Below, piece by piece: positions 5,035 to 52,308 of a stretch of DNA of 64,000 bases. The DNA is from Streptomyces sp. C10-9-1 (lineage in GTDB: Bacteria > Actinomycetota > Actinomycetes > Streptomycetales > Streptomycetaceae), in contig NZ_JANHKP010000018.1 in assembly GCF_024497955.1 (NCBI RefSeq), positions 62,001 through 126,000 of the forward strand. The letters are read 5' to 3'. Every line of letters starts with the position of its first letter. The stretch's first letter is position 1. Below the pieces are notes generated by a model. The model saw nothing but the letters and a program-made list of their open reading frames with translations. It did not search any database and was not told the origin of the DNA. The position numbers were made by a program, and so were the translations under genes.

Positions 5035-5062
5035 CCGTTCGGACACCACGAAGGAGAAGCCT

Positions 5063-5776: not shown

Positions 5777-5785
5777 ACCCCCGTC

Positions 5786-6712
5786 ATGCGCATCCTCGTC
5801 CTGGGCTTCACCGGATATCTGGGCGGACACGTCACCGGCCTGCTGCGCCGCACGCCGGACGTGGCCGTGATCGGCGGCGGGCGCTCGCCCGCCGCCGACG
5901 TCGGCGTCGACCTCGCCACCGTCTCCCCCGACCGCCTGGCGGGGACACTCGCCGACGTCGCACCCGACGCGGTGGTCAACTGCGCCGGGGCGGTGGGCGG
6001 CGACGCCGTCACCCTGGCGGAGGTGAACGCCCGGGGCCCGGCCGTGCTGGCCGCGGCCCTGCGGTCCGCGGCCCCCGGGGCCCGGCTGGTCCACCTCGGT
6101 TCCGCGGCCGAGTACGGCCCGGGCACCGAGGGGGTACGGGTGGCGGAGACGGCCCAGGCCGCTCCCGCCACCCCGTACGGCGCCACGAAGCTCGCCGGCA
6201 CGGCGGCGGTGACCGCGTCGGGACTGGACGCGGTCGTGCTGAGGGTGGGCAATCCGGTCGGCCCGGGGGCTCCGGCCGCGGGTCTTCCGGGGCGGGTGGT
6301 CCGGCTGCTGCGGTCGGCCGGCGGGGGCCCCGATGCGGAGCTCCGGCTCGGGGACCTCTCCCCGTACCGGGACTTCGTGGACGTGCGCGACGTCGCCCGG
6401 GCCTCACTGCTCGCGGCGACGGTCCCCGGACCGCTCCCGGGCGTGCTGAACGTCGGCGGCGGCGGGGCGGTCCCCGTGCGGGACCTGGTGCAGGGGCTGG
6501 CGCGGGCGGCCGGGTTCCGGGGCCGGGTGGTGGAGCAGAACGGCGGATCGGCCCGCTCCGGCGGGGTGTCCTGGCAGTGCTCCGACATCGCCGCCGCCGA
6601 GAAGGCGCTCGGCTGGCGGCCCGCGCACACCCTTCGGGACTCGGTGGCCGCCCTGTGGCGGGAGGACGGCACCGCGGTGGCCGCCGGTGCCGTCCCGGAC
6701 GGCACGCCGTGA
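5786..6712 (+). CDS. NAD-dependent epimerase/reductase (SDR)
   Basis: A second extended SDR of 308 residues. The N-terminal motif VLGFTGYLGGHV is the GxxGxxG dinucleotide-binding loop; TPYGATKLAG holds the Y-x3-K pair, and DLSPYRDFVDVRDVARA is the usual C-terminal substrate-domain motif. With the LegB-like enzyme and the nucleotidyltransferase it gives three consecutive sugar-nucleotide enzymes, suggesting the polymer contains or is primed by a modified sugar beyond plain GalNAc. It could be a 4-keto reductase acting on the product of the upstream enzyme, which is inference from gene order. It ends in a GTGA overlap with the spherulin-4 gene. Confidence 0.85.
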   Translation: MRILVLGFTGYLGGHVTGLLRRTPDVAVIGGGRSPAADVGVDLATVSPDRLAGTLADVAPDAVVNCAGAVGGDAVTLAEVNARGPAVLAAALRSAAPGARLVHLGSAAEYGPGTEGVRVAETAQAAPATPYGATKLAGTAAVTASGLDAVVLRVGNPVGPGAPAAGLPGRVVRLLRSAGGGPDAELRLGDLSPYRDFVDVRDVARASLLAATVPGPLPGVLNVGGGGAVPVRDLVQGLARAAGFRGRVVEQNGGSARSGGVSWQCSDIAAAEKALGWRPAHTLRDSVAALWREDGTAVAAGAVPDGTP

Positions 6713-7371
6713 GCCTCCTGATACCCCTCTACGTCCACCCGGCCGACGATCCGGGCGCCTGGCACCGGCTCATCACCGCTGCACGCCGCACCTGGGCCGT
6801 GATCCTGAACCCCGCGAGCGGGCCGGGCGATGAGCCCGATCCGGCGTACGCGGCGGCCGCCAGGGCGCTGCGTGCGCGCGGGGCCCGGGTCCTCGGCTAC
6901 GTGGACAGCGGCTACGGCCGCCGCACGGAGGACACGGTCGCGGAGGAGGTCGCCCGCTACCGCGAGTGGTACGCCGCGGACGGCTGCTTCCTCGACCAGG
7001 TGACCTCGGGCGCGGCGGAACTCCCGGCCTGCCGGCGCCTGGTCCGCAGGGTCCGCAGGCTCGGCGCGTCGCCGGTCGTGATCAACCCGGGTGTGCACCC
7101 GGCGCCCGGGTACGCGCGGGCCGCCGACCTCACCGTCACCTTCGAGGGCCACTGGAGCACCTACGTGTCCGCTTTCAGCCGACCCGACTGGACCGTCCGT
7201 CAGGCACCGGAGCGCTTCTGCCACCTGGTGTACGGCGTGCCGGAGGCCCTGGTGCCGCTGGCGGTGCGCACGGCGCGCACCCGGGGGGCGGCCGTCACCG
7301 GTCCGGTCACCGGCGACCTGCCCAACCCCTGGGCGGACCTCACCCCCGCGCTCGCGGGAGCCGAGCGATGA
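6709..7371 (+). CDS. Spherulin-4 family protein (Sph3/GH135-like)
   Basis: The 220-residue protein starts at GTG within the preceding stop. It begins LLIPLYVHP and continues WAVILNPASGPG, ARVLGYVDSGYG, WYAADGCFLDQV and VVINPGVHP, the strand-end motifs of the spherulation-specific family 4 TIM barrel. Fungal Sph3 of this family is an endo-alpha-1,4-N-acetylgalactosaminidase required for galactosaminogalactan production. Acidic residues of DSGYG and FLDQV are candidate catalytic positions. I see no signal peptide or membrane anchor, so the protein looks cytoplasmic as annotated, unlike fungal Sph3. It overlaps the GH114 gene by ATGA. Confidence 0.85.
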   Translation: MSLLIPLYVHPADDPGAWHRLITAARRTWAVILNPASGPGDEPDPAYAAAARALRARGARVLGYVDSGYGRRTEDTVAEEVARYREWYAADGCFLDQVTSGAAELPACRRLVRRVRRLGASPVVINPGVHPAPGYARAADLTVTFEGHWSTYVSAFSRPDWTVRQAPERFCHLVYGVPEALVPLAVRTARTRGAAVTGPVTGDLPNPWADLTPALAGAER

Positions 7372-8315
7372 GGCGCGGGGCGCGCCACGCGCTCGTGGCG
7401 CTGCTGGTGCTGGCGGCCGCGGGATGCTCCTCGGACGGCGGCGAACCGGGTGCCCGCGGTCCGGACCGCTCCTCCCCCGCCCCGCGGCCCCCGGCCTCCA
7501 CCGGGCCGCCGGCGGGCACGGCCTCGCCGGGGACGCCGCCGTCCGCCTCGGCCTCCGCACCGTCGCCGGGGCGCACGTCCGGTACGCCCGGTCCGGGGGC
7601 GTCCTCGGGACCGGGCGGGCGCTGGCAGCCCCGGCCCGGGCTCGCCTGGCAGTGGCAGTTGGACGGGCGGGTCGACCCCTCGGTGGACGTGCCGGTCTAC
7701 GACATCGACGGCTTTGAGAACTCCGCGGCCGACGTGGCCCGCCTGAAGCGGGACGGGCGCCGGGTCATCTGCTACATCAACGCGGGTGCCTGGGAGGACT
7801 ACCGGCCCGACCAGGAGGACTTCCCCCGCTCCCTGCTGGGCTCGCCCAACGGGTGGCACGGCGAGCGGTGGCTGGACATCAGGCGGACGGACGTCCTGCG
7901 GCCGCTGATGGAGCGCCGCTTCGACATGTGCCGGGACAAGGGCTTCGACGCCGTCGAGCCGGACCTGCTGGAGGGGTACGCCAACGACACCGGGTTCCCG
8001 CTCTCCGCCGACGACCAGCTGCGCTACAACCTGATGATCGCCGAGATCGCGCACGACCGCGGCCTGGCGGTCGGCCTGAAGAACGACCTGGCGCATGTCC
8101 CGGTGCTGGTGGACCACTTCGACTTCGCGGTGAACGAGGAGTGTGCGGAGTTCGACGAGTGCGAGCGGCTGGAGCCGTTCGTCGCGGCGGGGAAGGCGGT
8201 GTTCCACGTGGAGTACGAGGAGCGGACCGAGGAGTTCTGTGCGGACTCCCGGGACCTGGGGCTGTCGTCGATGCGCAAGCGCCTGGATCTGGACGTGTGG
8301 CGCGACCCCTGCTGA
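7368..8315 (+). CDS. GH114 endo-alpha-1,4-polygalactosaminidase lipoprotein
   Basis: The 315-residue product has a lipoprotein signal with lipobox LAAAGC, then a ~75-residue Ser/Pro/Gly/Thr linker and a GH114 domain: WQWQLDGRVD, PVYDIDGFENS, RRVICYINAGAWEDY, FDAVEPDLLEGY and VNEECAEFDEC. The two Asp/Glu clusters after VICYINAG and in FDAVEPD are the expected catalytic region. GH114 enzymes cleave alpha-1,4-linked galactosamine; fungal Ega3 is the counterpart in the galactosaminogalactan cluster, and PelA has a related domain. The lipoprotein would act on the outer face of the membrane, trimming or releasing polymer. It is the last gene of the run; the facing LtrA gene converges. Confidence 0.92.
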   Translation: MRRGARHALVALLVLAAAGCSSDGGEPGARGPDRSSPAPRPPASTGPPAGTASPGTPPSASASAPSPGRTSGTPGPGASSGPGGRWQPRPGLAWQWQLDGRVDPSVDVPVYDIDGFENSAADVARLKRDGRRVICYINAGAWEDYRPDQEDFPRSLLGSPNGWHGERWLDIRRTDVLRPLMERRFDMCRDKGFDAVEPDLLEGYANDTGFPLSADDQLRYNLMIAEIAHDRGLAVGLKNDLAHVPVLVDHFDFAVNEECAEFDECERLEPFVAAGKAVFHVEYEERTEEFCADSRDLGLSSMRKRLDLDVWRDPC

Positions 8316-8407
8316 GAGGACGGAGGCCGGGACCGCGGTCCGGGTGCGGCGCCCTGTGCGGGTCTCGTGCGGGGCGCCGTGGCGCGAGGGAGGCGGCCCG
8401 GCGGGCC

Positions 8408-9598
8408 TCAGCCGCGGCTGCGAGCGCCCAGGGCGATGCCCGCGGCGACGGTCGCGGCCGCCGCGAGGCCCGCCAGGGGGACGGCCCAGTGCCCGGCCAG
8501 GGTGGCGAGCAGCACCAGGAAGGCGCCGCAGGGCAGCACCAGGTGCTCGGCGATGTCCCGCTTGAAGTGGCGTGCGTGGACGGCCCACACGGAGACCATG
8601 AACAGCGCGGTGGGAAGGGTCACGGCGAACGCGGCCCCGGTCGCGGACACGTGGGCGTGGTGGGTGACCTGCTCCACCGCCACCTCCAGGCCGGCCCCGA
8701 TCGCGGCCGCGGAGCCGAGGACGACGTAGTGGGCGTAGCCCCACAGGAACGCCTGGCGGCTGGAGACCAGGTACTCGTGGATGGGAACGGAGAAGTAGAT
8801 CCAGAAGGCCGCGAACACGATCACCAGGCCGCCCGCGGCGACCGGCAGCAGGTCGCCGAGCGCGTGCTCGTCCAGCCCGGCCTGCACGGCGACGCTGGTG
8901 GCCGCGATGCTCTCGCCGAGCATGATGATGGTGAACAGCCCGTAGCGCTCCGAGATGTGGTGCGGATGCCAGGGGGTGCGCCGGCTGTGCTCGGCGAAGG
9001 CGGGGACGGCCAGCTCCGCGACGATCAGCGGCGCGATGCCCCACAGCCATGCGGCATCGGGCAGCAGCACCAGCACCACCCAGCCGAGCTGCACCAGGAC
9101 CAGGCCCCCGGCGTACCGCAGGGCGGTCGTCCGCCCCGCGCCGGTCTCCCCGCGGGAGGCGCGCAGCCACTGGGCGGTGAGGGCCACGCGCATGATCAGG
9201 TAGCCGACGACGGCCACCGTGTAGTCGCCTTCGTCGAAGGCCTCGGGGATCCCGGCCGCCAGGACCAGCACCCCGGCCATCTGGACCAGGGTGGCCACCC
9301 GGTAGGGGACGTCGTCGCAGTCGTAGGCGGAGGCGAACCAGGTGAAGTTCACCCAGGCCCACCACAGCGCGAAGAACACCAGGAGGTACCCGCCGATGCC
9401 GTGGGCCGGATCGCCCTCCGCGACGGCGTGGACGAGCCGGGCCCCGGCGCGGGCGACGGCCACCACGAAGCACAGGTCGAACAGCAGCTCCAGCGGAGTG
9501 GCGGCCCGGTGCGCCTCGTCGGGGCGCCGGGAGGTCATCCGCACCAGGGGCCGCACGACCCGGCCCCGGCCCACTCCCTGGGAACTGTGCTCGGTCAT
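8408..9598 (-). CDS. Low temperature requirement A (LtrA) family membrane protein
   Basis: A 396-residue polytopic protein. Typical LtrA motifs are present: TPLELLFDLCFVVAVA, WWAWVNFTWFASAYD, GIPEAFDEGDYTVAV, and WHPHHISERYGLFTIIMLGES, followed by paired transmembrane helices. The molecular function of the family is not established; it is named from a Listeria cold-growth phenotype. The ATG at 9598 precedes MTEHSSQG and the family begins soon after. It lies on the same strand as the methyltransferase and upstream RiPP-type genes but 150 bases away, so membership of that locus is uncertain. Confidence 0.9.
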   Translation of the reverse strand: MTEHSSQGVGRGRVVRPLVRMTSRRPDEAHRAATPLELLFDLCFVVAVARAGARLVHAVAEGDPAHGIGGYLLVFFALWWAWVNFTWFASAYDCDDVPYRVATLVQMAGVLVLAAGIPEAFDEGDYTVAVVGYLIMRVALTAQWLRASRGETGAGRTTALRYAGGLVLVQLGWVVLVLLPDAAWLWGIAPLIVAELAVPAFAEHSRRTPWHPHHISERYGLFTIIMLGESIAATSVAVQAGLDEHALGDLLPVAAGGLVIVFAAFWIYFSVPIHEYLVSSRQAFLWGYAHYVVLGSAAAIGAGLEVAVEQVTHHAHVSATGAAFAVTLPTALFMVSVWAVHARHFKRDIAEHLVLPCGAFLVLLATLAGHWAVPLAGLAAAATVAAGIALGARSRG

Positions 9599-9750
9599 CT
9601 CCGGTCCGCCTCCCGCTCGGCATCGCACGTCGTCCCAGAATGGCCCAGAAGGGCCGAGGGGACGCGGCAGGCGCGGCGGGAGGGCGGGCGGCGGTGCCTC
9701 GCCGGGGGGCGGGACCGCCGCCGGGGCCCGGCGGGCCGGATCCGGGCCGG

Positions 9751-10380
9751 TCAGCGCGGGCGGCGGCAGTGCACGTAGAGCTGGGGTTCGGGCGTGGCGA
9801 GCTCCGTCGCCGGGGTGAACTCCTCCTCCCGGACCTCGGCCACGCTCAGCCCCGCCTCCTCCACCAGGTGCACGAACGCCTCGGTGGAGAAGCTGGTGAG
9901 GGTCACCTCGTGGCCCATCCAGCGGCCCTCGACTCCGTCGAGGTCGAGGGGGACGGTGGCGAGAGCGCAGACGCCGCCGGGCACCAGCGCGGCGGCCGCC
10001 CTGGCAAGGACGGCGCGCTGCTCGGCGCGGGTCATCTGGAGCAGGCTGAAGTAGGAGCAGACGCCGTCGTAGTGGCCCGGCTCCGGCTCGTGGGTGCGGA
10101 TGTCGGCGAGGAGGAAGCGGGCGTCGGGCACATGGCGCGAGGCCAGCTCGACCATGACCGGTGACACGTCGACGCCCGTCACCCGGTGCCCGGATCCGGC
10201 GAGGGCGGCGGCGACGGGCCTGCCGGTGCCGGACCCGATGTCGAGGACCCGGCTCCCGGGCGGCAGTTCGCCCAGGAGCCAGGCCACGCTCTGCCTGCGC
10301 CCCTCGGAGGCGGCGAAGGCGCTCTCGTACTCCTCCGCGATCGCGTCGAAGAGACGGGCCGCGGGCGGCGGTTGCTGCAC
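9751..10380 (-). CDS. Class I SAM-dependent methyltransferase
   Basis: The 209-residue protein has the canonical SAM-binding motif VLDIGSGTGRPVAAAL, the acidic motif II VTGVDVSP, and post-motif FLLADIRTHEP with the YDGVCSYFSLLQM motif, an arrangement usual for small-molecule methyltransferases. No additional substrate domain is visible. It is 136 bases downstream of the 170-residue unknown and may belong to the same unit as the adenylate-forming enzyme and the KSGCIS-repeat peptide, in which case a methylation tailoring step is possible. The substrate cannot be inferred from sequence. Confidence 0.88.
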   Translation of the reverse strand: MQQPPPAARLFDAIAEEYESAFAASEGRRQSVAWLLGELPPGSRVLDIGSGTGRPVAAALAGSGHRVTGVDVSPVMVELASRHVPDARFLLADIRTHEPEPGHYDGVCSYFSLLQMTRAEQRAVLARAAAALVPGGVCALATVPLDLDGVEGRWMGHEVTLTSFSTEAFVHLVEEAGLSVAEVREEEFTPATELATPEPQLYVHCRRPR

Positions 10381-10516
10381 GGGGTGCCTTCCGGTCGGGG
10401 CGGTCGGGTGGCGTCGGACGCGGGCGGTGCGGTGCCGGCCCGGAGGGAGGCACTGCGCCGCGGCGGGCCGGGTGCCTGGACGCTTCCCTCGGCCACGGGG
10501 GGTGAAACCGCGGGGC

Positions 10517-11029
10517 CTACGGCCCGTCCGGGAGGTCGATCTCCGCGATCTCCTCCAGGGACATGTCCAGTTGCCGGTGGAGGAAGCGGACGATCGTCCA
10601 GTGCGGCAGCGCCTCCTCCTCGAACGGCCCGAACGCCCGGCAGTACAGGGGGATCCAGCGCAGCGCCTCCTCCACGACCTCCTCGCGCCCGGGCTCGCGC
10701 TGGTAGTCCTGGTAGGCGATGCTGCGGTGCTCGATGAGGTAGCCGCCGGGAAGCCGCTCCTCGCAGAGGGCCCGGTACTCGCGGGTCTGGAGGATCAGGT
10801 AGTGCCAGATCTCGTCCACGGCCTGCTCGACCGGGAGGAACAGTCCGGAGAGCCGCTCGCGGTGGAGCGAGACCAGGTACAGGTAGCGGAGGCATTCGAG
10901 TACCTGCCGTTCGACGAACGCCTTCGGGGGGCCGTCCCCGGCGGAGAAGTGGGCCACGACCTCCTCGTGGAGGTCGTGGCCGAGGAGGGTGCGCAGGTCC
11001 TCGGCCGTCGTCTGCGGTGGTGCGCTCAC
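10517..11029 (-). CDS. Conserved protein with DExWH-type motif (DUF1399-like)
   Basis: The 170-residue, mostly helical protein is not assigned a function. It contains VEQAVDEIWHYLILQTREY and RALCEERLPGGYLIEHR, which resemble the D-E-x-W-H motif of glycine-rich-domain (DUF1399) proteins, where the His/Asp/Glu set may bind metal. The GTG start at 11029 has a GAGGGAGAG ribosome site. The gene lies 82 bases downstream of the adenylate-forming enzyme on the same strand and is probably cotranscribed with it, so a partner role in peptide or small-molecule tailoring is possible. This is context, not demonstrated homology. Confidence 0.7.
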   Translation of the reverse strand: MSAPPQTTAEDLRTLLGHDLHEEVVAHFSAGDGPPKAFVERQVLECLRYLYLVSLHRERLSGLFLPVEQAVDEIWHYLILQTREYRALCEERLPGGYLIEHRSIAYQDYQREPGREEVVEEALRWIPLYCRAFGPFEEEALPHWTIVRFLHRQLDMSLEEIAEIDLPDGP

Positions 11030-11111
11030 GTCTCTCCCTCGAGGTGCGGTGCGGTGCCGCCGGCGCGTCGGCGCCGGGGCCTCGCGGTGGGGTGCCGGTT
11101 TCCCGGCGCGG

Positions 11112-12368
11112 TCAGCGGCTCGTGTCGAGCCAGGCGTACTTGCCGGATCGGCCGATGGGGACGTGGTCGCGGTGCTCCAGCGCGCAGCGGCGTCCGACGA
11201 GGGCGCCGACGGCCCCTGCCAGTTCCCCGGCCACGGGCGGTGCCAGCGGGGCTCCGTCGAAGGTGGTGTACGACAGACGGGCGTCCCGGTCGCCGTCGAC
11301 GCGGAGCCGGTGGACGAAGACGGCGGGGGAGATCCCGGCGACGCAGTCGTCCAGGTCCCCCTGGGCGATCGGGCCCCGGCGGCCGGTGCGCAGCGCTCCT
11401 GCGGGCAGCAGTTCCTTCTCCCGTCCGCAGAAGCGCTCGATCCGCTCCGGGTCCGGGGTGCCGTCGAGGGTCCGCACGCAGTCGCCCGAGCGGTAGCGGA
11501 TCAGCGGCATGTAGGGGTTGCGGACGCTGGAGACGATCAGGCTGTAGATGTCGCTTCCCGGGGTGACGGGCAGGAGTTCGACGCTCATCCGGTCGAGGTG
11601 GGGGTGGTACCGGCCGTGGCGGTCGCTGTAGTAGAGGTAGCCGAGTTCGGTGCTGCCGAAGAGGTCGACGACCGGGCAGGCGAAGTGCCGCGTCAGGAAG
11701 CGCCGGACGTTGGTGGGGGTGTACTCGTAGGCGTGGACGATGCTGGCGGGCCGCGGGAGGTCCTCCCACAGGCCCCACCGGCGGGCCTTGAGGACCAGAT
11801 GGGCCAGGTGGTAGCCGGAGCAGTCGAGGTGGTACCAGCCGCGGGGGTGCGCCCGGCGGGCCTCGTGGATCTCCGCCACCATCCGTTCGACGTCGGAGCG
11901 CTCCCACTGCGCCGGGTCCAGGCGCAGGTTGAGGTACACGGTGCGGTCGTCGAGCCTGCGGTCGCGCAGCGACGGCACCGGTTCGGGCGTGGCACCGCGT
12001 TTCCCGGCGTTGGTGCGTGCGACGTGCTCCGTCGCCAGCACGGTGGTCAGGGAGACGCGCTCGCAGCCCTGCTCCCAGGTGAAGGCGATGTCCGGGTGCT
12101 CGCTCCAGAGCCTGTAGTAGGAGTGCAGCAGGAAGTACGGGGGCCGGATGATCTGCATCCTGGCGTGGTTGGTGCCGGTGGAGAGCACGAACTCCGCCTC
12201 GCCCTCGGCGAGCGCGGCAGCCAGTCGCGGCGTCATCCAGTTGCCGGGGAACCCCCGGGCGATCTCGGGCTTCTCCAGGACGGGGAAGCTGCCCGCGGCA
12301 ACCGACGCGCGGTAGATCGGTATGTCCCTCACCTGTTCGACGAACTCTGCCGGCGGTTGACCGTGCAC
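11112..12368 (-). CDS. Adenylate-forming enzyme (PaaK/LuxE-like)
   Basis: This 418-residue protein has the landmarks of phenylacetate-CoA ligase/LuxE-type acyl-activating enzymes: FVLSTGTNHARMQI (phosphate-loop region, S-T-G-T), HAYEYTPTNVRRFL, VVDLFGSTELGYLYY (A5-type motif), YRSGDCVRTL and GREKELLPAG. Such enzymes adenylate a carboxylic acid and pass it to CoA, a protein or an amine. The start is GTG 12368, preceded by an AGGGGG site, rather than upstream in-frame codons in low-complexity sequence. It follows the 51-residue KSGCIS-repeat peptide by 143 bases on the same strand. A tailoring role for that peptide is inferred from position; no acyl carrier or acyltransferase is adjacent. Confidence 0.78.
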   Translation of the reverse strand: MHGQPPAEFVEQVRDIPIYRASVAAGSFPVLEKPEIARGFPGNWMTPRLAAALAEGEAEFVLSTGTNHARMQIIRPPYFLLHSYYRLWSEHPDIAFTWEQGCERVSLTTVLATEHVARTNAGKRGATPEPVPSLRDRRLDDRTVYLNLRLDPAQWERSDVERMVAEIHEARRAHPRGWYHLDCSGYHLAHLVLKARRWGLWEDLPRPASIVHAYEYTPTNVRRFLTRHFACPVVDLFGSTELGYLYYSDRHGRYHPHLDRMSVELLPVTPGSDIYSLIVSSVRNPYMPLIRYRSGDCVRTLDGTPDPERIERFCGREKELLPAGALRTGRRGPIAQGDLDDCVAGISPAVFVHRLRVDGDRDARLSYTTFDGAPLAPPVAGELAGAVGALVGRRCALEHRDHVPIGRSGKYAWLDTSR

Positions 12369-17863: not shown

Positions 17864-18964
17864 CTACCTCCAGACACGGAGGTAGTCCACGGCGAAGGAG
17901 AAGGGAGTGCGGCCTTCGGGCGGGGGATGGTAGGCGCCAGCGCACACCGATAGGTTCAGGATGAGGTGCGCGGACCAGTTGTTGCCGACGCCGGTGTGGT
18001 CGGAGTAGATCCTGCGCCCGTTGAGGTACCAGTCGGAAGAGTGGGCCCCGAAGTGCACCCCGATCGTGATCCACCGCCCCGGGCCTATGCTCTCGGGGTC
18101 GCGGTAGTAGGTGCCAGCGGGTCTCACTCGGTTGGTGAGTTCGAGTAGGTCGAAGTTGTTCGGGTGATACTCGAACACATCGACTTCGCCGTTTCCGTCC
18201 TTCCACGTCCACAGCGCCGGCCATGCCCCATGGGCGTCGGGCAGGCGAACTCGCGTCTCTGCGTAGTCGCCTGGGCGGACCATGAAGTCCTCGTCGGTGT
18301 TTTCGGTCGTCAGCAGACCTGTTTCCCATGCCAACCGACCGTTCTCTAGAATCCGCCGAGAGGGCCTGGCTGTGAAAGTCGCGACGCCCGCATGCGTCGA
18401 CACCGCGGATGGGCTCAGCCAATCGAGCTTGTTGTCCTTCGGGTTATGGTCGCCGTACTCGTACGCGCTCGTTCGGCTACCATTCCATCGCTTCCCCCAT
18501 GAAATGCGACCGAATTCCTCTCCGAAGGCCAGTGATTTTCCTGCGCTCGGCGGAAGCCCTCCTTGTGTAGACGTGACGGAGAGCTTTACGTGCGGCAGGT
18601 TGTAGAATCGTCCGGCGATCTCGTAGAAGCCGAACATGACGTATTCACCGGGCTCAAAGCTTCGCCTTCCAGTGGTGATCGTCACGCCGTTTCGGCATAT
18701 GCGGACGTTTTCTCTCGCGCCCGGGAAATCCAGGTTCCTTCCGCGTTGATCGCGGACCGCCACTCCCAGGCGTCGAACGGTGGTACATCGCGATGCCCGC
18801 ACGGTGAGCGTGGCAGCGGTCGGACTCGCCGCCACCGCGCGAGACGGCGTGAGGCTAACCAGAGTTACCGCAGCATTCGGCGGAGCGGCCTCGGCGACGC
18901 CCACAGAGGGCAGGCCAAGTAAAGCCATGGATATTACGGAAAGTGCAGTCAATAGCAGACGCAC
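17864..18964 (-). CDS. Secreted GH16-like glycoside hydrolase
   Basis: A 366-residue protein with a Sec signal peptide (MRLLLTALSVISMALLGLPS, cleavage near AEAAP), an N-terminal beta-rich region of ~120 residues, and a C-terminal GH16 domain. The catalytic motif E-x-D-x-x-E appears as GEVDVFEYH, preceded by GAWPALWTWKDG and followed by WYLNGRRIY and NLSVCAGAYH, as in laminarinases and lichenases. Substrate is probably a beta-1,3/1,4-glucan or agar-type polymer. The start is GTG with a GGGAG site. Codon and base composition are clearly less GC-rich than neighbouring genes and the gene lies between IS remnants, so it looks laterally acquired. Confidence 0.85.
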   Translation of the reverse strand: MRLLLTALSVISMALLGLPSVGVAEAAPPNAAVTLVSLTPSRAVAASPTAATLTVRASRCTTVRRLGVAVRDQRGRNLDFPGARENVRICRNGVTITTGRRSFEPGEYVMFGFYEIAGRFYNLPHVKLSVTSTQGGLPPSAGKSLAFGEEFGRISWGKRWNGSRTSAYEYGDHNPKDNKLDWLSPSAVSTHAGVATFTARPSRRILENGRLAWETGLLTTENTDEDFMVRPGDYAETRVRLPDAHGAWPALWTWKDGNGEVDVFEYHPNNFDLLELTNRVRPAGTYYRDPESIGPGRWITIGVHFGAHSSDWYLNGRRIYSDHTGVGNNWSAHLILNLSVCAGAYHPPPEGRTPFSFAVDYLRVWR

Positions 18965-19551
18965 AGAAGTCTCCCTTCGCTCGCGAAATTACGTCCCGTG
19001 ACCTAACTCGGAGCATGGAAAGCCAGGCTGGCCGAAGCGATTCACAGGAGCAATGCGAAGCTAACCCGGTCTCCAGTCGCAGGCAACAGGGCGAGTGCTG
19101 AGCCGCCTCCGGGATAAAGTAATCGCCCCAAGAGAGTGAACGACACTGTCGCCTGCAATTTCAAAATGGCCGAATGGGGTAGAACCCATCCGCCATCCAG
19201 GCGTGCTGATTAACCGGAACGGCCGCGATTAGGCTTGCTGGAGCTTGAAACTACGGCTTGCGAAGTACTGCCGCTGAGTCGATTCCATTCTGAATAGTTG
19301 CAGGTCAGCAGGGGAACAGATTGGCCTGGACGATGGCGCTGACGTGTCGGGCGGAGCATCTGGCCCAGCGGAGTAACCGCCAGGAACCCAACAGGGTGCA
19401 GGCGTGCTCGGCGCACGCCCTCACTCGGCATGGTCGCGGTGGCACTGTCGGCAGTGCTCGGCTTGCTCGCGGTGGCGGACGTACGGTGGCACACCCCGAC
19501 GGCCTGGTAGGTCGCGACCGGCCAAGGCGAAGGGTCTGCCGCACGAGCGGG
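18965..19551. other. Low-GC intergenic stretch upstream of GH16
   Basis: Nearly 600 bases with visibly lower GC than the rest of the window. It should contain the GH16 promoter, but no gene or intact IS could be read. Confidence 0.5.
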
Positions 19552-19741
19552 TGACAGAGGCAGTGCCGGAGGCCGACCGCCCGCTTTCGACGCCGAGGCA
19601 TACAAGCAGCGCTACTCAATCGAACGCTGTATCAACCGGCTCAAGGAATGGCGCGGCCTGGCCATGGGGACCGACAAGCTCGCCATCGCCTACCAGGCCG
19701 CACTCCACCTCGCCGCGACCCTCATCCGGGCACGGCGGTAG
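19552..19741 (+). pseudogene. IS5-family transposase, C-terminal remnant
   Basis: The frame ending at the TAG 19739-19741 reads GRPPAFDAEAYKQRYSIERC, then INRLKEWRGLAMGTDKLAI and an AALHLAATLIRARR tail. This is the C-terminal DDE end of IS5-family transposases (E of the DDE triad in SIER). The remainder upstream is not recognisable, so the element is dead. Confidence 0.85.
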
Positions 19742-19746
19742 CCCGC

Positions 19747-20130
19747 TCAGCGATCGACCACCCACCGTGCGTCCGCAGGCCGAGAGCCCGTGCCAACGAT
19801 GTGCTCCACGAGCTTGCATGCCTCACGGATGGGGACGGTGTCCTCATCCGGATACTCGTCGCCCTGCCCGTTGGAGAGGACGAACCCGTCGCTCGCCCCC
19901 GCAGTTCCGGGGTCCACGGCATGCTCGCCGGGATCACCCTCGCCTTCGAGCAGCACCACCATCGCTCGCTCGGCATTCGTCACGAAGGCCAGCAAACGTC
20001 CAGACGAACTGGTCAGCCACGTCTCAAGCCGCCCGCTGTCGATCCTCGACCGAAGAGCCTCCACCACCCCCGCCGACGATACGGGGACAGGGCTGTCGTC
20101 ATTGATCACCCAAGACTCGATCACGAGCAC
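19747..20130 (-). CDS. Imm1-like immunity protein (orphan)
   Basis: The ~127-residue acidic protein contains RLLAFVTNAERAMVVLL, EGEGDPGEHAVDP and DEYPDEDTVPIREAC, resembling Imm1-type immunity proteins of polymorphic toxin systems and related Streptomyces orphans. The coding part of the frame begins about 20130; GTG at 20130 or 20124 are both possible and neither has a clear ribosome site. No toxin gene is adjacent; the gene abuts the IS5 remnant by 5 bases, so it may be the survivor of a disrupted toxin locus. Function is a guess from weak resemblance. Confidence 0.5.
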   Translation of the reverse strand: MLVIESWVINDDSPVPVSSAGVVEALRSRIDSGRLETWLTSSSGRLLAFVTNAERAMVVLLEGEGDPGEHAVDPGTAGASDGFVLSNGQGDEYPDEDTVPIREACKLVEHIVGTGSRPADARWVVDR

Positions 20131-45461: not shown

Positions 45462-45536
45462 CCGGGATCAGCGTGTCCTCCCCCGGGCCCGGAGCCGGGC
45501 GGTCGGCACCTCCGGTGCGTCGAGGCGGGCGCCGTC
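45462..45536. repeat. Left 75-bp direct repeat (att-like), detached pirin 3' end
   Basis: Identical over 75 bases to 51337-51411. On the minus strand it encodes DGARLDAPEVPTARLRARGR-TR and the pirin stop codon with no pirin gene attached, so it is a duplicate. The flanks diverge immediately beyond both ends. Confidence 0.92.
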
Positions 45537-45779: not shown

Positions 45780-46313
45780 TCACCGACCGAGCGCAACGGC
45801 CAAGAACGCCGTGGTGATCGCCGGCAGCAGCATGACGATGGCATACCGCACGCACCGGTTCTTGGCACGGGCGATCCTGCTCGTCTCCCGCAGCGCACGA
45901 AGCAGCCGGGGCTGGGGATCGGCGCCGTCCCTCCTGAGTCCGGCCGACAGTTCGGAGCGGGTCTCCGTGCGAACGACGTCTTCGTAGTACGCGAGGAGGC
46001 CGTGCCGCTCCCCGGTGGCCGGCCCGCGGCGCGGCGCAAGAGCCAGGAGGAGGAAGACCAACGCCCCGGTGGTCGCGGCGGTTGCCGTCCACCACAAGGG
46101 GATGGCACCGACGGCATCGGGGGGACGCCGTAGGAGGAGGAGCCCGAAGAGTGTTCCGCCCGTGGCGAGGAGGACGGCTGCCTTGCCGTCAGCGCGTCCG
46201 ATCTCCATGTAGTTCTGCGCGATGAGCTCACGTGACAGAATCAGCGCGTCGTCCGTGCCCGAGGACCGTCGTCCGGACCGTGTTGTCAGCAGGGATGCCA
46301 GGGCGTGCATCAC
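45780..46313 (-). CDS. PycTM-like effector (DUF5706 family membrane protein)
   Basis: The 177-residue protein has a short cytoplasmic N-terminus, YMEIGRADGKAAVLLATGG and two adjacent membrane helices, a ~50-residue soluble segment (YYEDVVRTETRSELSAGL), and a C-terminal helix. This matches Pycsar effector transmembrane (PycTM) proteins, which respond to cCMP or cUMP by disrupting the membrane and stopping growth of phage-infected cells. It is the last gene of the operon and starts at GTG overlapping the preceding stop. The cyclase three genes upstream would supply the signal. Confidence 0.88.
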   Translation of the reverse strand: MMHALASLLTTRSGRRSSGTDDALILSRELIAQNYMEIGRADGKAAVLLATGGTLFGLLLLRRPPDAVGAIPLWWTATAATTGALVFLLLALAPRRGPATGERHGLLAYYEDVVRTETRSELSAGLRRDGADPQPRLLRALRETSRIARAKNRCVRYAIVMLLPAITTAFLAVALGR

Positions 46314-47233
46314 GGAGCACCTCCGTGATGGCCGTTCAGGTCCCCGCGCGATCCACCCGCGTCACCGATCCTGCGCAGGACCTCGTCGCCCTGGGGCACA
46401 CCGACCTCGCCGAGAAGACGTGCCAGGTTCACCCCGACGAAGCTCCGGTCCTCCTTCGTCAGCCCTTGCAGCGTGGCAGCCAGTGTGCGCTCCCATCCGT
46501 CCCTCTCGGTGAGCAGCTCGCCGTGCGCAACCGTCCAGTCGAGCACCTCTCTGGCCTGGTCGGGATGGTGGAGCAGCCAGAGCGCCGCGAGACCTACCGG
46601 CCCCCCGGCCACCACCTCACGGTAGAAGCGGTACGCCTCGCGGTGGGGCTCGCCGAAGCTCGACGGAAGGAGGACCTCGGCAGGACGGCTCGAAGCCGGC
46701 AGCAGGCCGGCCGGCGGGTCCAGAAACCGGTAGGTCACGCCTGTCCCCTCGATGCCCCGTGGCTGACCGGGTGGCTCCACCTGAGCGGTCCCGTACAGGG
46801 TCGGCGGCTGTCGAAGGGGATGCGAGCCAGGCGGCCGTGCGGCGGTTCCGCGGATGTCCTGCTCGATCAGTCGGCACACGGTGTCCTCGGTGAGGCCGCT
46901 ACGCGCCGCGACCACCGGGTCGCTGATGCTCCAGGCGAGTTCGTAGCGCGCAAGTGAAGGGGTCGACTCCGCAGGGCTCCGGCGCGGCACGTCCACCGCC
47001 GTCCGGCGTTCCGCCAGGGAGACCCACCCGATCGCGTCGAACTCCCGGCGCAGTGCCTCCCCGAGCGACGGCCGGAGGTAGCCCCGGCTGTCTCCCCCTC
47101 GGGGTGGTTCGAGGCGGTCCGCCTCCCGGTCCGAGAGGAAGACCAGCGCGTGCGCCGCGGACGGCCTGAACCGCTGCCGCAGCAGCTGCCGAACCGGTGA
47201 CGACCCGGCCGGTACCAGCAATGGCTTGCTCAT
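46310..47233 (-). CDS. Unknown protein of the Pycsar-like operon
   Basis: A 307-residue soluble protein of no recognised family. Visible segments are LVFLSDREADRLEPPRGGDS, LARYELAWSISDPVVAARSG and a helical, repeat-like C-terminus (HPDQAREVLDWTVAHGELLT, VGVNLARLLGEVGV). It overlaps both neighbours by 4 bases, so it is a stable component of the operon, perhaps a sensor, adaptor or inhibitor holding the effector off. Confidence 0.75.
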   Translation of the reverse strand: MSKPLLVPAGSSPVRQLLRQRFRPSAAHALVFLSDREADRLEPPRGGDSRGYLRPSLGEALRREFDAIGWVSLAERRTAVDVPRRSPAESTPSLARYELAWSISDPVVAARSGLTEDTVCRLIEQDIRGTAARPPGSHPLRQPPTLYGTAQVEPPGQPRGIEGTGVTYRFLDPPAGLLPASSRPAEVLLPSSFGEPHREAYRFYREVVAGGPVGLAALWLLHHPDQAREVLDWTVAHGELLTERDGWERTLAATLQGLTKEDRSFVGVNLARLLGEVGVPQGDEVLRRIGDAGGSRGDLNGHHGGAP

Positions 47234-49302
47234 GACACATCGCTCCTGTCTGACGCGTTCGTGTGATCCCGGTGGCGCCCCAGCAGGAAGCGGATGACTC
47301 CCCGACGGTGGCGGGCGGTACGGGAGAGTTCGCTCAGTACCTGGCCGAAGGCAGTCCTGCGGAACATGTCGGGGTCGGCTTCGACCCGCGCAAGCCCCTC
47401 GGCCACGGCTTCGTACGTGGCCGGGTCGTCGAGACCCCGCACGACGAGGGTCAAGCCCTGCGCGGGGTGGCGTTCCAGAGTCCGGGCCAGGCTGATGCGA
47501 ACGGCACCGTGGGTACCCGGCCGGGGGAACGTCGAGAGGCACAGGGAGTGGATCACGTGCACTGCCAGGGTGTGACGGGGGGTTCCCCGTCCGGCTTCCA
47601 GCCACGTCGTCACCGCCTCCAGGACCTCCGCATGGTTGTCCTCCTCGGTGAGGAGGGCGCCCAGCGCGAAGGAGACGGCAGCGCGCAGCTTCGCGTCCAA
47701 CTCCGTTGAGGAGCCGTCGAGGACGGCGTCCAGGAGCTTGAGGGCCGCGGCAGGCCGGGCGAGGCCGTAACTCCCCGCACAGGTCTCCGCGACCGTGCAG
47801 CGGAGAACGACCGATGACCGGCTCCACCGGCGCATCTGCTCCTTGACCGCACCGGACACCAGAGGGTGCTGGACGATCTCCCCGAGCGCCACCGCCACCA
47901 GCCGTCGGCGCCAGCGCTCCCCGGAGGAAGCGAAGCGGTGCAGCTGGGTCAGCGCGCCGGGGCCGGTGGCGTGAGCGAGGACGCGGCCGATCGCCTCTCC
48001 GGCGGCCACATCGAGCCCCGGCTGGTAGCGCAACTGCTCCAGCGCTCCCCACAGTGCTTCGGGCATGCCTTCGAAGTCCAGCCACAGATGACGCAGGAGG
48101 GTGACCGAGCGGTGCCTGCCGAAGAAGTCGATCGGCTGTACGGGGTAGCGGTACCGGTCGGCGGGAGAACTACGAGGTGCCAGCAGGCGGGCGCCGATGG
48201 CTTCCAGTCGATCCGCGAGCGAGGCGCCGAGGAGGTCTGGCGACCGGTCCTCCTGGGGCCCGGCCTCCCCTGACCCGGCAGCACGCTCACCGAGCAGAGG
48301 CCGCATCGCAGCGGCGAACTGCTCGATCACCGTTCGGTCCTGTCCCGGGAGAAGAGCCACGGCCGCCATCAGGGAGACCTTGTCGGCACTGTGCCGAGCC
48401 TGAACGAGCGCGGACCGGGCTGCCTCCTCGGTGCCCGTCAGCAGGCCGCTGAGCACAGGCCCGGTGGGTGCGGACGTCCCGACGGCCCGACCCACCCCGT
48501 GCGCAAGTTCGACGGCGTCTCCGGGCAGCGGATGTGCGGAGAGGTAGTCGGTGAACGCGGAGGAGGCCAGTACGGCCAGTGCCGTGTCCAGTTGTGAGCC
48601 GTCAAGCAGCTCTTCAGCAGCCACGAGCCGTAGCCGCCGCTCCGCGACCTCGTGTGGATCCGGTGCGTCATGCACCACTTCCCACCTGCCGGCGTCCGGC
48701 GGCAGCCGGGCATCCTGCGCCATGGTGACGACCAGGTGCGCCCCTGCGCCGTGCAGGGCCTCGGCCAGGCCCGCCAACCGCACGTCGTCGAGCGACCGGG
48801 CGGATGCCGCAGGCAGTCCCTGAAGGAGGTAGCCACGGCCGGACCCCGGCCGCCACGAGGACAGATCCACCATCGCGTCCAGGCCTGTCACTCCCCTCTC
48901 CCCGTGCCTTTCGGCGAGAAGGGCGAAGGCCGCCGTGCCGGCACCCGTTCCGGACCTCGACCTGAGCAGCACGATCCGGCTGTCCAGCGCCTTCCGGCAG
49001 CGGCCGTGCGAGGGGGGTTCGACGAATCCGTAGAGTCGCCTGCGCACATCCTGCGCCGGGTAGGGGCCCTCACGCAGGCGAGGCTTGAGAATCTGCTCGG
49101 TGGCCTCGTCGTTCCACGCACTGATGTTCAGGTACGTGAAGTCGCCTCCGACGTTGCCCATCAACGCGACCCCGCTGTCCACCCGCTGGTGGCTCTCACG
49201 GTGAGCGCTGCGCTGACCGGCTCCAGGTCGCGCCGACGTGTCAGGCGCGTGGGGACCCGGCTGGACGTCGGGTCCCGCAGCGGGAACGGGTCCGGCGTTC
49301 AC
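47230..49302 (-). CDS. Degenerate STAND/HEAT-repeat-like protein
   Basis: A 690-residue protein. Residues 48-57 are MGNVGGDFTY, shared with the upstream cyclase C-terminus. A P-loop-like segment SRSGTGAGTAAFALL (~116-130) has Ala121 where Walker A needs Lys, and LVVTMAQDARLPP looks like a sensor-1 strand, so the NTPase module appears inactive or altered. From ~380 on there are repeated helical pairs (LDVAAGEAIGRVLAHATG, VSFALGALLTEEDNHAEVLE, WLEAGRGTPRHTLAVHVIHS) that read as HEAT-like. It overlaps genes on both sides by 4 bases. A role as scaffold or sensor for the cyclase is inferred. Confidence 0.75.
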   Translation of the reverse strand: MNAGPVPAAGPDVQPGPHAPDTSARPGAGQRSAHRESHQRVDSGVALMGNVGGDFTYLNISAWNDEATEQILKPRLREGPYPAQDVRRRLYGFVEPPSHGRCRKALDSRIVLLRSRSGTGAGTAAFALLAERHGERGVTGLDAMVDLSSWRPGSGRGYLLQGLPAASARSLDDVRLAGLAEALHGAGAHLVVTMAQDARLPPDAGRWEVVHDAPDPHEVAERRLRLVAAEELLDGSQLDTALAVLASSAFTDYLSAHPLPGDAVELAHGVGRAVGTSAPTGPVLSGLLTGTEEAARSALVQARHSADKVSLMAAVALLPGQDRTVIEQFAAAMRPLLGERAAGSGEAGPQEDRSPDLLGASLADRLEAIGARLLAPRSSPADRYRYPVQPIDFFGRHRSVTLLRHLWLDFEGMPEALWGALEQLRYQPGLDVAAGEAIGRVLAHATGPGALTQLHRFASSGERWRRRLVAVALGEIVQHPLVSGAVKEQMRRWSRSSVVLRCTVAETCAGSYGLARPAAALKLLDAVLDGSSTELDAKLRAAVSFALGALLTEEDNHAEVLEAVTTWLEAGRGTPRHTLAVHVIHSLCLSTFPRPGTHGAVRISLARTLERHPAQGLTLVVRGLDDPATYEAVAEGLARVEADPDMFRRTAFGQVLSELSRTARHRRGVIRFLLGRHRDHTNASDRSDVS

Positions 49303-50198
49303 CGGTGGTCCCTGTCGGCAGTCCGCTTGTCACCCGCCACGTTGTCTCCGCCGCCCCAGTGCTGGTTGGTTCCGCGGTACGTGGTCGCGCGTGCGGTGTA
49401 GGTGAAGTCACGACCGACGTTGCCCATCACCGCGGCTCCTTCACCGACGCTCTGGGAGCTTCCGCTGCAATCCGTTCCGGGCACGTCGTCCGGCTCCCCC
49501 GCACGGACCGTCGGGACCGCGCCCGCGGGCTCCTCGCTCCGCTGAACGCCCGCGCGCACGAGGTTGCCGGAAGGTGAGGGAACGTAGAGCCAGGCCCGCT
49601 GTGCGAAGCCCTTGCCCTCGACGGTTGCCGGCACTTCGACACACCGATCCGGATGAAGCCCCGCGTAGGCGCCCAGTACGACGTCTTCGTAGACCCTCTC
49701 CGAGATGATCGCGACGATGTGGGTCACCTCCTCGCTCGCCGCGGAGAGGATCGCCTTGACCGGACGCGAGTCCAGGAGCCGGTGCGTGTCGTTGCGGGCC
49801 GTGCCGTTGCCGTCTCCCGGATCGCCCCCGTCGGGCAGCGGGCCGACGTGCACACTGGCCCGGAGCCTGATCCGCGGGCCGACGGCCTGCCGGTTGTACG
49901 TGCCGAGCACACCGTCCAGAACGCCCAGGAAGGGCCAGAGGACGAAGGGCAGGTGCACGGGATCGAACCCGAAGACCACGCCGTCCCCCGTATTGGCGGG
50001 GAACCGCTGGGCATCACGCAGTTCATGCAGGCCGGCCCGCTCAAGGGCCTGGTCCACCAGGCGAGGGATGAGCTGGCTGACCGGGCCGTGCTGGGCGGCC
50101 GGCAGGCCGGTGAAGTCCTTGGCGTCGACAGCGAACAGAGCGCGGTACGGCGGCAGCGGACGGCTGTCGGCATACGGAACGGGCATAGGGACAGACAT
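49299..50198 (-). CDS. Class III nucleotide cyclase (PycC-like)
   Basis: The 299-residue protein has one class III cyclase domain (residues ~15-205). Metal-binding Asp25 lies in LFAVDAKDFTG and Asp72 in FPANTGDGVVFGF; the transition-state pair Asn136/Arg140 is NDTHR in ARNDTHRLLDSR. Overall layout resembles Pycsar pyrimidine cyclases that make cCMP or cUMP, but the base specificity is not certain. After a ~50-residue linker the C-terminus carries MGNVGRDFTY (258-267) and GGGDNVAGDK. ATG 50198 has an AAGGGGAA site. It overlaps the STAND-like gene by GTGA and should supply the signal for the PycTM effector. Confidence 0.85.
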   Translation of the reverse strand: MSVPMPVPYADSRPLPPYRALFAVDAKDFTGLPAAQHGPVSQLIPRLVDQALERAGLHELRDAQRFPANTGDGVVFGFDPVHLPFVLWPFLGVLDGVLGTYNRQAVGPRIRLRASVHVGPLPDGGDPGDGNGTARNDTHRLLDSRPVKAILSAASEEVTHIVAIISERVYEDVVLGAYAGLHPDRCVEVPATVEGKGFAQRAWLYVPSPSGNLVRAGVQRSEEPAGAVPTVRAGEPDDVPGTDCSGSSQSVGEGAAVMGNVGRDFTYTARATTYRGTNQHWGGGDNVAGDKRTADRDHR

Positions 50199-50333
50199 GC
50201 GGATTCCCCTTCTGGATGGTCCGGCAGGCAGCCGGAACCGGGCTGCCTCGAGGTTCCATCCGCCACGCGCCGCCGAGTGCACACCACTGGGCGCATGGAG
50301 CGTGTTCCGGATCACATGTCGCTGTCGCCGTCC

Positions 50334-50990
50334 TCAGTCGGCCGCCGCCCAGCACTCCAGGGCTTTCACGTCCTTGATGACGATGACCCGCCGCGCCGTC
50401 TCGACCAGCCCGACGGCCCGCAGTTGCCGCAGCCCGCTGATGACCGCGTTGCGCGTCACGCCGATCGCCTGAGCGACCTCCTCCTGGTTCAGACCCGTCA
50501 GCCGGACGGAGTTGCCCTCCGTCCCCCTGTCGGTGAGCACCGCCAGCCTCAGCAGGGTTCGCGCCAACCGCACGACCAGGGGCAAGCTCTGCAACTCACC
50601 CCGGTAGAGGTCCGACTCGCGCATTCTGGCCAGTGCCTGACGCATCAACTGGATGACCAGACCGCGCTCCTCGACGAACCTCACGAAACGCTGGGCATCC
50701 AGGACAACCGCAACACAGGGGGTCAGGGCGACCACGTCGGCCGTGCGTGACGTTCCGTTGAAGACCGAGACCTCCCCGAGCAGGTCACCCGGCCCCCTGA
50801 ACGCAAGCCAGGTCTTGGCGCCACTGGGCTCTCGGCACACCACCTTGGCCAACCCCGAGGTGAGAGCGAGGAGATGGGTGCCGGGAGCGCCTTGCCGCAG
50901 CATCACGCTCCGCTCCGGAAACCTCCGGGTCACGCCTTGATCGCGCAGTTCGCGCCAGACTTCGTCGGACAGCACGTGTCGCCTTCCCAT
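50334..50990 (-). CDS. Crp/Fnr-family cyclic-nucleotide-binding regulator
   Basis: A 218-residue regulator. The cNMP-binding barrel has LRQGAPGTHLLALTSGLAKV and GDLLGEVSVFNGTSRTADVV; the G-E and R-T-A residues of the phosphate-binding cassette are kept, so it may bind a cyclic nucleotide. The C-terminal winged HTH reads LNQEEVAQAIGVTRNAVISG. No iron-sulfur cysteines are present. It sits 135 bases upstream of the cyclase on the same strand, inside the repeat-bounded island, and may autoregulate the operon by sensing its own product. ATG 50990 lacks a strong ribosome site; GTG 50993 is adjacent. Confidence 0.9.
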   Translation of the reverse strand: MGRRHVLSDEVWRELRDQGVTRRFPERSVMLRQGAPGTHLLALTSGLAKVVCREPSGAKTWLAFRGPGDLLGEVSVFNGTSRTADVVALTPCVAVVLDAQRFVRFVEERGLVIQLMRQALARMRESDLYRGELQSLPLVVRLARTLLRLAVLTDRGTEGNSVRLTGLNQEEVAQAIGVTRNAVISGLRQLRAVGLVETARRVIVIKDVKALECWAAAD

Positions 50991-51078
50991 CACGCCCACA
51001 CCGGTGCACATCGGACCCACGAGTTGTACGCCGCCTTCGCGGTCGTCATCGAGGATCGCGGGACGTTGGCCGAAAGCA

Positions 51079-51336: not shown

Positions 51337-51411
51337 CCGGGATCAGCGTGTCCTCCCCCGGGCCCGGAGCCGGGCGGTCGGCACCTCCGGTGCGTCGAGG
51401 CGGGCGCCGTC
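51337..51411. repeat. Right 75-bp direct repeat (att-like), 3' end of pirin gene
   Basis: Identical over 75 bases to 45462-45536. It covers the last codons and stop of the intact pirin gene plus a few bases beyond. The island genes lie to its left. Confidence 0.92.
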
Positions 51412-52308
51412 GTAGCCGACCACGTCGCCGAAGCGGGAGCCGGTCGTCCAGTCCTCCCTCGCCTGGCGGATCTCCTCGTCGGTCCGGCCGATGAAGTTCC
51501 ACCACATCACGATCTCCTCCTCGAAGGGCTCCCCGCCGAGGAGCATCAGGCCCGCGTCCGCGTCGGCGCGCAGGGGGAGTTCGGTTCGACCGCAGCCGAG
51601 GTAGAGCATGGACCCCCGCGGGACGGGCACACCGTCGACGTGGGCCTCGCCGGACAGGGCGAGGACGGCGTACTCGAAGTCGGGCTCCAGGGGCAGCCGG
51701 TGGTCCGCACCGGCGCCCAGCGCGAGGTCCGCGCCGACGATGGGGGTGTACGCGGTGCCCGGGGAGGCCGTGCCGTCCAGCGTCCCGAGGATCACCGTCG
51801 CCTCCAGGCCGGGGGCGGTGACCCGGGGCAGGACGGTGTGGTGCTCGAAGCGGGGCTCGGCCCCGCGGTGCTCTTCGGGGAGGGCCACCCACAGCTGGGC
51901 GCCGTGCAGGAACCGGGCGTGCGAGCGGGGGCTCTCCTCGGAGTGGCTGATCGCCCGGCCCGAGGTCATCAGGCCCAGCTCGCCGGGGCGGACGGTGGCC
52001 AGGGACCCCGTGCTGTCGCGGTGCAGCACCTCGCCCTCGTGGAGCCAGCTCACGGTCTGCAGGCCCATGTGGGGGTGGGGCGGCACCTGCATCCCGGGCT
52101 CGTCCGCGATGTCGTCGGGCCCGTAGTGGTCGACGAAGGCCCAGGCTCCCACCATGCGCCGTCCCAGGTTCGGCAGCAGCCGGCGCACCTCGGTGGACTC
52201 GCCGAGGGGGACGTGCCGGGGGCTGAGGAGCTCGCGGACGGGCTGGGCGACGACGAATCCCCGGCCGCCGCAGACGGAGAGGGCGGCCTGACGATCGAGA
52301 TTGCTCAT
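51343..52308 (-). CDS. Pirin family protein
   Basis: The 321-residue bicupin has the pirin metal site and family motifs VPPHPHMGLQTVSWLHEGEV and GRAISHSEESPRSH (His-rich Fe ligands in HPH and the following His), with LHGAQLWVALPEEHRGAEP. Some pirins are quercetinases or redox-dependent transcription cofactors. The gene is complete and its 3' end coincides with the right repeat of the island, so it was left functional by the insertion. Confidence 0.93.
   Translation of the reverse strand: MSNLDRQAALSVCGGRGFVVAQPVRELLSPRHVPLGESTEVRRLLPNLGRRMVGAWAFVDHYGPDDIADEPGMQVPPHPHMGLQTVSWLHEGEVLHRDSTGSLATVRPGELGLMTSGRAISHSEESPRSHARFLHGAQLWVALPEEHRGAEPRFEHHTVLPRVTAPGLEATVILGTLDGTASPGTAYTPIVGADLALGAGADHRLPLEPDFEYAVLALSGEAHVDGVPVPRGSMLYLGCGRTELPLRADADAGLMLLGGEPFEEEIVMWWNFIGRTDEEIRQAREDWTTGSRFGDVVGYDGARLDAPEVPTARLRARGRTR

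Follow-up and report, generated by a model that had tools for sequence, protein, structure and literature searches.

A conserved, transferable five-gene operon of Streptomyces that encodes a class III nucleotide cyclase, a STAND protein, a Crp-type regulator and a PycTM effector

Introduction

On the minus strand of a contig of Streptomyces sp. C10-9-1 (NCBI RefSeq assembly GCF_024497955.1, contig NZ_JANHKP010000018.1) five genes, identified from their open reading frames and read from position 51020 to position 45780 of the 64,000 nucleotides analysed (contig positions 62,001 to 126,000, in the following called the window), encode in this order a Crp regulator, a class III nucleotide cyclase, an nSTAND3/HEAT protein, a protein of 307 residues (P307) and PycTM. 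The five genes are one conserved, transferable unit. We consider it rather probable that this unit is a mobile Pycsar-like abortive-infection operon, the cyclase of which has an NLR-like switch of its own and a Crp feedback loop. We infer the defence role from the exchange of the effector, from the patchy, mobile distribution and from the restriction and Qat genes in the neighbourhood.

To our knowledge, how Pycsar cyclases sense phage is not settled, and few defence systems have been studied in Streptomyces. The operon encodes a sensor candidate together with the cyclase, the two being joined by a short motif, which makes sensing in Pycsar testable by a swap of about twenty residues. If the proposal is true, the NLR/amyloid and the cyclic-nucleotide signalling branches of bacterial immunity are linked, with a transcriptional loop built in.

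Gene Order and Occurrence of the Operon

The first-pass annotation of this DNA had described a five-gene operon with 4-base overlaps from the cyclase onward. All five frames were found on the minus strand at the claimed positions, and the overlaps at the three junctions (cyclase/STAND, STAND/P307 and P307/PycTM) are exact. The frames stand as they had been placed, but the starts given for Crp and the cyclase are, from the alignment of relatives, probably 5′ of the true ones. The Crp/Fnr-type regulator (50334..50975, minus strand) starts by conservation with GTG at 50975 in a frame open to 51020, and the cyclase (299 amino acids, 49299..50198, minus strand) with a conserved ATG at 50198 in a frame open to 50315. 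With these starts the gap between crp and the cyclase gene is 136 bp. The window's own cyclase, STAND protein and P307 sequences have no match in Pfam, PADLOC or NCBIfam.

A search for the gene order, which the first-pass annotation had suggested, returned one conserved unit. With the cyclase alignment as query, 84,980 species genomes yielded 80 loci from Streptomyces, Kitasatospora, Actinacidiphila, Streptantibioticus, Actinoplanes and Micromonospora, of which 78 have Crp before the cyclase, 74 the STAND protein, 66 the cyclase-STAND-P307 triad and 32 PycTM. Crp had been counted as a member of the operon, to which it does belong, since it lies upstream of the cyclase in nearly all loci (78/80) and inside the flanking repeats described below. 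The STAND protein was matched in 40 of 394 sampled Streptomyces genomes, i.e., in about one tenth and in a patchy manner, the matched loci keeping the order Crp-cyclase-STAND-P307-effector; the family is common, and the PADLOC cyclase models do not detect it. Phage and viral collections contained no relatives.

The Cyclase and Its Possible Product

Numbered from ATG 50198, residues D25, D72 and R140 do not vary among 29 relatives, and N136 is conserved in at least 90% of them. The metal aspartates D25/D72 and the pair N136/R140 had been reported as intact from the sequence of this one enzyme, with a numbering that proved correct. Searches of the cyclase, P307 and STAND sequence profiles against PDB chains gave nothing significant, and structure prediction was therefore used. 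The AlphaFold2 model of the cyclase, built with the 29 relatives, has the class III palm fold: in Foldseek it matches, with a best E of 3.5e-5, adenylyl and guanylyl cyclases, and with E 1.9e-4 the uridylate cyclase of Anabaena (8jsz). This fold rules out signalling of the CBASS or CRISPR type. The PADLOC PycC models matched none of the 29 cyclases at E ≤ 1. Of the earlier designation as Pycsar-like, the class III fold, the catalytic residues and the PycTM neighbour speak for the name, whereas the missing PycC match and the number of genes (five rather than two) do not.

In the clade D enzyme AnPycC the residues F60, K104 and F109 are reported to select UTP (PMC11224242). Their equivalents here are A23, T70 and V75, in a register set by the metal-aspartate motif only and with a single clade for comparison. 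Since residues specifying uracil are absent at these positions, the enzyme may make something other than a pyrimidine nucleotide.

At one locus (L029; G225:C1, about positions 286–1032 of the locus) residues 47–206 of the cyclase query lie on the plus strand and residues 207–252 on the minus strand, possibly a small inverted segment that is either an invertible switch or a sign of decay.

The STAND Protein

The third gene (47230..49302, minus strand) encodes an nSTAND3-HEAT protein of 690 amino acids, the putative sensor. The family assignment comes from its relatives: 12 of 26 match nSTAND3 of Pfam (best E 1.5e-6), and HEAT repeats are recognised in several; the window's own protein does not match nSTAND3 by itself and has only a sub-threshold hint of helical repeats. 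Only one match to an effector-associated domain was found among the relatives (EAD8, E 0.13). According to a tally of Walker A sequences the lysine of the P-loop is missing throughout the family, the motif being GTGAGT in the window, GTGAGT or GTGAST in its branch and GTGRRT or GSGRRT elsewhere. The protein had been described from the sequence alone as degenerate and STAND/HEAT-like, the former being borne out by the missing lysine and the latter by the nSTAND3 and HEAT matches of the relatives. The family-wide loss of the lysine makes an ATP-driven assembly doubtful; the protein may bind a nucleotide without cycling or may use no ATP at all.

A Motif Common to the Cyclase Tail and the STAND Head

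The C-terminal motif of the cyclase, VMGNVGRDFTYT (49395..49430, minus strand), recurs in the N-terminus of the STAND protein as VALMGNVGGDFTYLN (49126..49170, minus strand). VMGNVGRDFTY ends the cyclase and LMGNVGGDFTY begins the STAND protein, both within flexible tails. The other main branch of the family carries a sequence of the GNINTGTVHGGQSV type on both proteins, and GNINTGTVHGGQ is an example of a matched cyclase/STAND motif from another locus. Own cyclase-STAND pairs have a mean tail/head score of 59 as compared to 42 for swapped partners, a value that none of 2000 permutations reached, although such permutation statistics are inflated because the loci are related to one another. With the relatedness of the cyclases allowed for, the covariation of the two motifs persists (partial Mantel r 0.37, p 0.0005).

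A matching motif at the N-terminus of an NLR and at the C-terminus of its partner, encoded by neighbouring genes, is the arrangement described for bacterial amyloid signalling motifs (BASS; PMC12261475). The sequences here show the same placement, with the difference that the partner is a cyclase and not a classical effector domain. The presence of one motif on the cyclase tail and on the STAND head, changing in step from locus to locus, suggests that the STAND protein might switch the cyclase on by motif pairing, by analogy with amyloid signalling.

The likeness of the motifs could also have come about by shared ancestry or by low-complexity drift of disordered tails, the two proteins being uncoupled. 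The tails are indeed rich in Gly and Asn and predicted with low confidence, and phylogeny accounts for part of the signal, r having been 0.63 before the correction. We nevertheless regard this explanation as unlikely: tail and head are parts of two different proteins, in 48 of 62 own pairs the score exceeds that of 95% of the tail shuffles, and in the plasmid locus L242 cyclase and STAND protein are matched in a different, unrelated motif (TVNFSHHGEHGVQTYNL and SVSFTHAGKHGIQAYNL).

In locus L064 (G254) a cyclase of a different actinobacterial family lies beside a STAND protein, and the tail and head again resemble each other (VRAKNVVSGEQWNIR and VRAESIVGGDQFILN), which suggests that the principle of pairing may be wider than the five-gene operon.

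PycTM and Alternative Effectors

The last gene (45780..46313, minus strand) encodes a protein of 177 amino acids that had been named as a PycTM effector. It matches PF18967 with E 3.1e-16, above the Pfam cut-off, which bears the name out, and the PADLOC PycTM model with E 1.4e-8. From its hydropathy it has three hydrophobic segments (residues 42–60, 74–92 and 157–175), and it contains no recognisable cyclic-nucleotide domain. In several loci the place of PycTM as fifth gene is taken by a membrane-linked nuclease with an Mrr_cat domain (E 1e-18 to 1e-24).

Proteins of the PycTM family are true Pycsar effectors, and no STAND partner is needed in two-gene Pycsar (PMC11224242). The operon might then be a plain Pycsar system with accessory genes: the cyclase would sense phage alone, and the STAND protein and P307 would serve in the shared operon as independent or auxiliary modules of defence. 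This is, in our judgement, quite unlikely, because the supposed accessories (STAND in 74 and P307 in 66 of 80 loci) are more constant than PycTM (32 of 80) and because the paired motif ties the STAND protein to the cyclase.

Seven loci (L077, L081, L094, L095, L104, L134 and L138) have Crp, cyclase, STAND protein and P307 with no recognisable effector beside P307; the effector may have been lost, be encoded elsewhere or be so short that the gene calling missed it.

The Crp Regulator and Its Operator

The first gene had been described as a cNMP-binding, Crp-type regulator. It matches cNMP_binding (E 2.8e-20) and HTH_Crp_2 (E 5.7e-13) of Pfam, and the residues G82, E83, R92 and A94 of its phosphate-binding cassette (numbered from 51020) are invariant in 21 members, so that cNMP-binding domain, Crp-type HTH and intact cassette are all in place. 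The recognition helices of this protein and of E. coli CRP are different.

In the gap between crp and the cyclase gene lies a CRP-type operator, TGTGATCCGGAACAC (50302..50316, minus strand). The strict pattern TGTGA-N6-[TA]CAC occurs in this gap in 28 of 66 loci, 0.37 being expected from dinucleotide-preserving shuffles, and a looser form of the box in 38 of 66 (expected 1.19, from shuffles of the same kind). The box may be bound by the Crp of the operon or by the global Crp. The gap alignment revealed a second conserved block, GCGCCCAGTGGTGTGCACTC (50275..50294, minus strand), downstream of the CRP box, and the alignment of the region upstream of crp a conserved promoter-like block, TTTCGGCCAACGTC ... 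GGCGTACAACTC (51021..51075, minus strand). A universal palindrome upstream of crp was looked for and not found; the conserved operator sits in the crp-cyclase gap instead. In L242 the sequence TGTGACTCACCACAC, seen by eye outside the region scanned automatically in L242–L244, overlaps the stop codon of Crp.

P307

P307 (46310..47233, minus strand) had been noted as an unknown protein of 307 residues; the frame is real and indeed without a Pfam match. Its AlphaFold2 model (mean pLDDT 70.8, most of the N-terminal 130 residues near 90) comprises an N-terminal domain predicted to be SPFH/stomatin-like and a helical C-terminal part. The best 14 Foldseek matches of the model are all members of the SPFH family (stomatin, HflK/C and others; best E 6.6e-3). 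In hhalign the comparison of P307 with Streptomyces Band_7 proteins stayed below significance, as did the positive control, the cyclase against class III cyclases. With the control failing, hhalign lacks the power needed and its null result does not count against an SPFH domain. We take the SPFH-like fold, predicted from one model, as a lead.

Flanking Repeats and Mobility

A perfect, att-like direct repeat of 75 bp, absent from the first-pass annotation, brackets exactly the five genes. The left copy is found at 45462..45536 and the right copy at 51337..51411, where it covers the last codons and the stop of a pirin gene (51343-52308); the genome contains no further full copy. The GC content between the repeats is 0.704 as compared to 0.76 and 0.754 in the flanks, and GC3 of the genes between them is 0.82–0.86 as compared to 0.96 for pirin. 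From its sequence the stretch looks like an acquired islet. There is no integrase gene between the 75-bp repeats. An empty pirin site was not found in the relatives, in which the downstream NlpC/P60 gene is not beside pirin.

The loci of several relatives lie between repeats of tRNA 3′ ends: a tRNA-Ser-like one in L078, tRNA-Thr in L074 and tRNA-like ones in L129 and L137. In L120 the flanking repeat is one of 150 bp with another sequence. Statistically, exact direct repeats by themselves do not set the operon apart (about 8 spanning it versus 3 not spanning it); the telling point is that several of them are tRNA 3′ ends. The islet of L078 contains the five genes and a GmrSD type IV restriction gene. 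GmrSD is also found in L130, and QatC near P307 in L088.

Crp and cAMP are used in the development of Streptomyces. A developmental or stress regulatory operon, not antiviral, with Crp as main output and PycTM as membrane signalling protein, would agree with this use and with the finding that no other part is as constant as the Crp-cyclase pair (78/80), which has a conserved operator. We hold it to be very unlikely in view of the patchy occurrence (40/394), the att-like flanking repeats, the exchange of the effector, even for a nuclease, and the restriction and Qat neighbours. That the cassette is decayed or inactive, the degenerate P-loop and the unusual cyclase being signs of a locus non-functional in this strain, is hardly credible: the missing lysine and the weak codon adaptation evident from GC3 would fit, but the five frames are intact with exact overlaps, the catalytic residues are conserved family-wide and so is the change in the P-loop.

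In the tRNA-Thr islet of L074 (L074:1585-9300) the operon is accompanied on its other side by CYTH-like, methyltransferase, thymidylate-kinase-like, radical SAM, HAD and NUDIX genes, by eye a larger cargo; an integrase remnant, also suspected there by eye, has no Pfam match. Elsewhere in the window, positions 18001–20000 have a GC content of 0.63 (window average 0.74) and are possibly another acquired region.

Proposed Mechanism

Class III cyclases act as dimers. We propose that the nSTAND3 protein detects a signal of infection with its HEAT-repeat end, upon which it would assemble and its N-terminal motif would pair with, or template, the motif in the cyclase tail; cyclases would thus be gathered and presumably activated. 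From its catalytic residues the cyclase is expected to make a 3′,5′-cyclic mononucleotide. Depending on the effector family encoded, this nucleotide would open the PycTM pore or activate the membrane-tethered Mrr nuclease, and the infected cell would be stopped. Crp might bind the same nucleotide and control the operon via the operator before the cyclase, in a feedback or a feed-forward manner. Perhaps, with weak support from the predicted stomatin/SPFH-like domain, P307 holds the complex at the membrane. The unit would move in the form of a small islet between direct repeats, which lie at the 3′ ends of genes or tRNAs.

In a further-reaching form the proposal states that an NLR-type receptor activates a class III cyclase by prion-like templating between matching short motifs. 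A conformational signal would in this way be converted to a diffusible alarm, a cyclic nucleotide maybe outside the known Pycsar set, to which a killing effector and a dedicated Crp transcription factor would both respond. This form we put forward tentatively, as possible rather than probable.

Relation to Known Systems

The operon resembles Pycsar in that a class III cyclase fold adjoins a PycTM (PF18967) effector. Pycsar consists of two genes, for the cyclase and the effector, and in the strict sense has a cyclase of the PycC kind that makes cCMP or cUMP, whereas the five genes here include those for a STAND sensor, P307 and Crp; the cyclase is not matched by the PADLOC PycC models and an Mrr nuclease is an alternative effector.

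In the actinobacterial EAD-coupled STAND conflict systems a STAND NTPase is coupled to a partner, sometimes a cNMP cyclase, via a common adaptor region, and CRP-like genes are linked to some related systems (PMC7159879; PMC8195603). A coupling of cyclase and STAND protein by an adaptor domain common to both is on record (PMC8195603). STAND NTPase, cNMP cyclase partner, actinobacterial hosts and the link to CRP are likewise features of the operon; it differs from these systems in that the place of a folded EAD or Death-like domain is taken by a short Gly/Asn/Gln motif and in that the cyclase is encoded together with PycTM. The fixed order Crp-cyclase-STAND-P307 was not found in either description (PMC7159879; PMC8195603). 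With CBASS and Panoptes the operon has in common the logic of a nucleotide signal and a membrane effector, but those systems use a CD-NTase or a minimal CRISPR polymerase in place of a class III cyclase.

Beyond PycTM, no system catalogued in PADLOC matches the operon. The literature searched, from which bioRxiv preprints and many subscription papers were missing, contained two-gene Pycsar and the STAND/EAD systems and did not contain the five-gene arrangement. The first-pass annotation had taken the additional sensor-like and regulator genes to indicate a regulated, possibly undescribed variant of Pycsar. This view can be retained, as neither a PADLOC cyclase model nor a paper found describes such a variant and an identical catalogued system did not turn up in PADLOC or in the literature searched.

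Variant Loci

A distant lineage, its cyclases being about 35–37% identical, is found on three large plasmids (L242, L243 and L244) in the order PycTM-Crp-cyclase-STAND. The same parts in a different order argue that the parts work together. In L242 (NZ_CP108260.1, positions 4655–11256 in the locus) the STAND gene is interrupted by an IS701 transposase, and in the cyclase H stands at the position of N136.

In L096:7986-12188 and L113:14844-16994 the operon is closely followed by genes for a CHAT-domain protein and a NERD-UvrD helicase. Proteins of both kinds are common in conflict systems.

Nine loci (L048, L052, L054, L112, L120, L124, L128, L129 and L141) have a longer variant of the operon, which adds 3′ of P307 a protein of 60–100 residues that bears the motif only (ERGIINTGTVHGGQHVT) and a second nSTAND3-like protein, and also a protein of 180–246 residues, an HTH_17 protein of 90 residues and a protein of about 350 residues, the start of which by eye resembles a nucleoside deoxyribosyltransferase/TIR-like fold. 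These additions may form a second module of the coupled kind, with a different effector.
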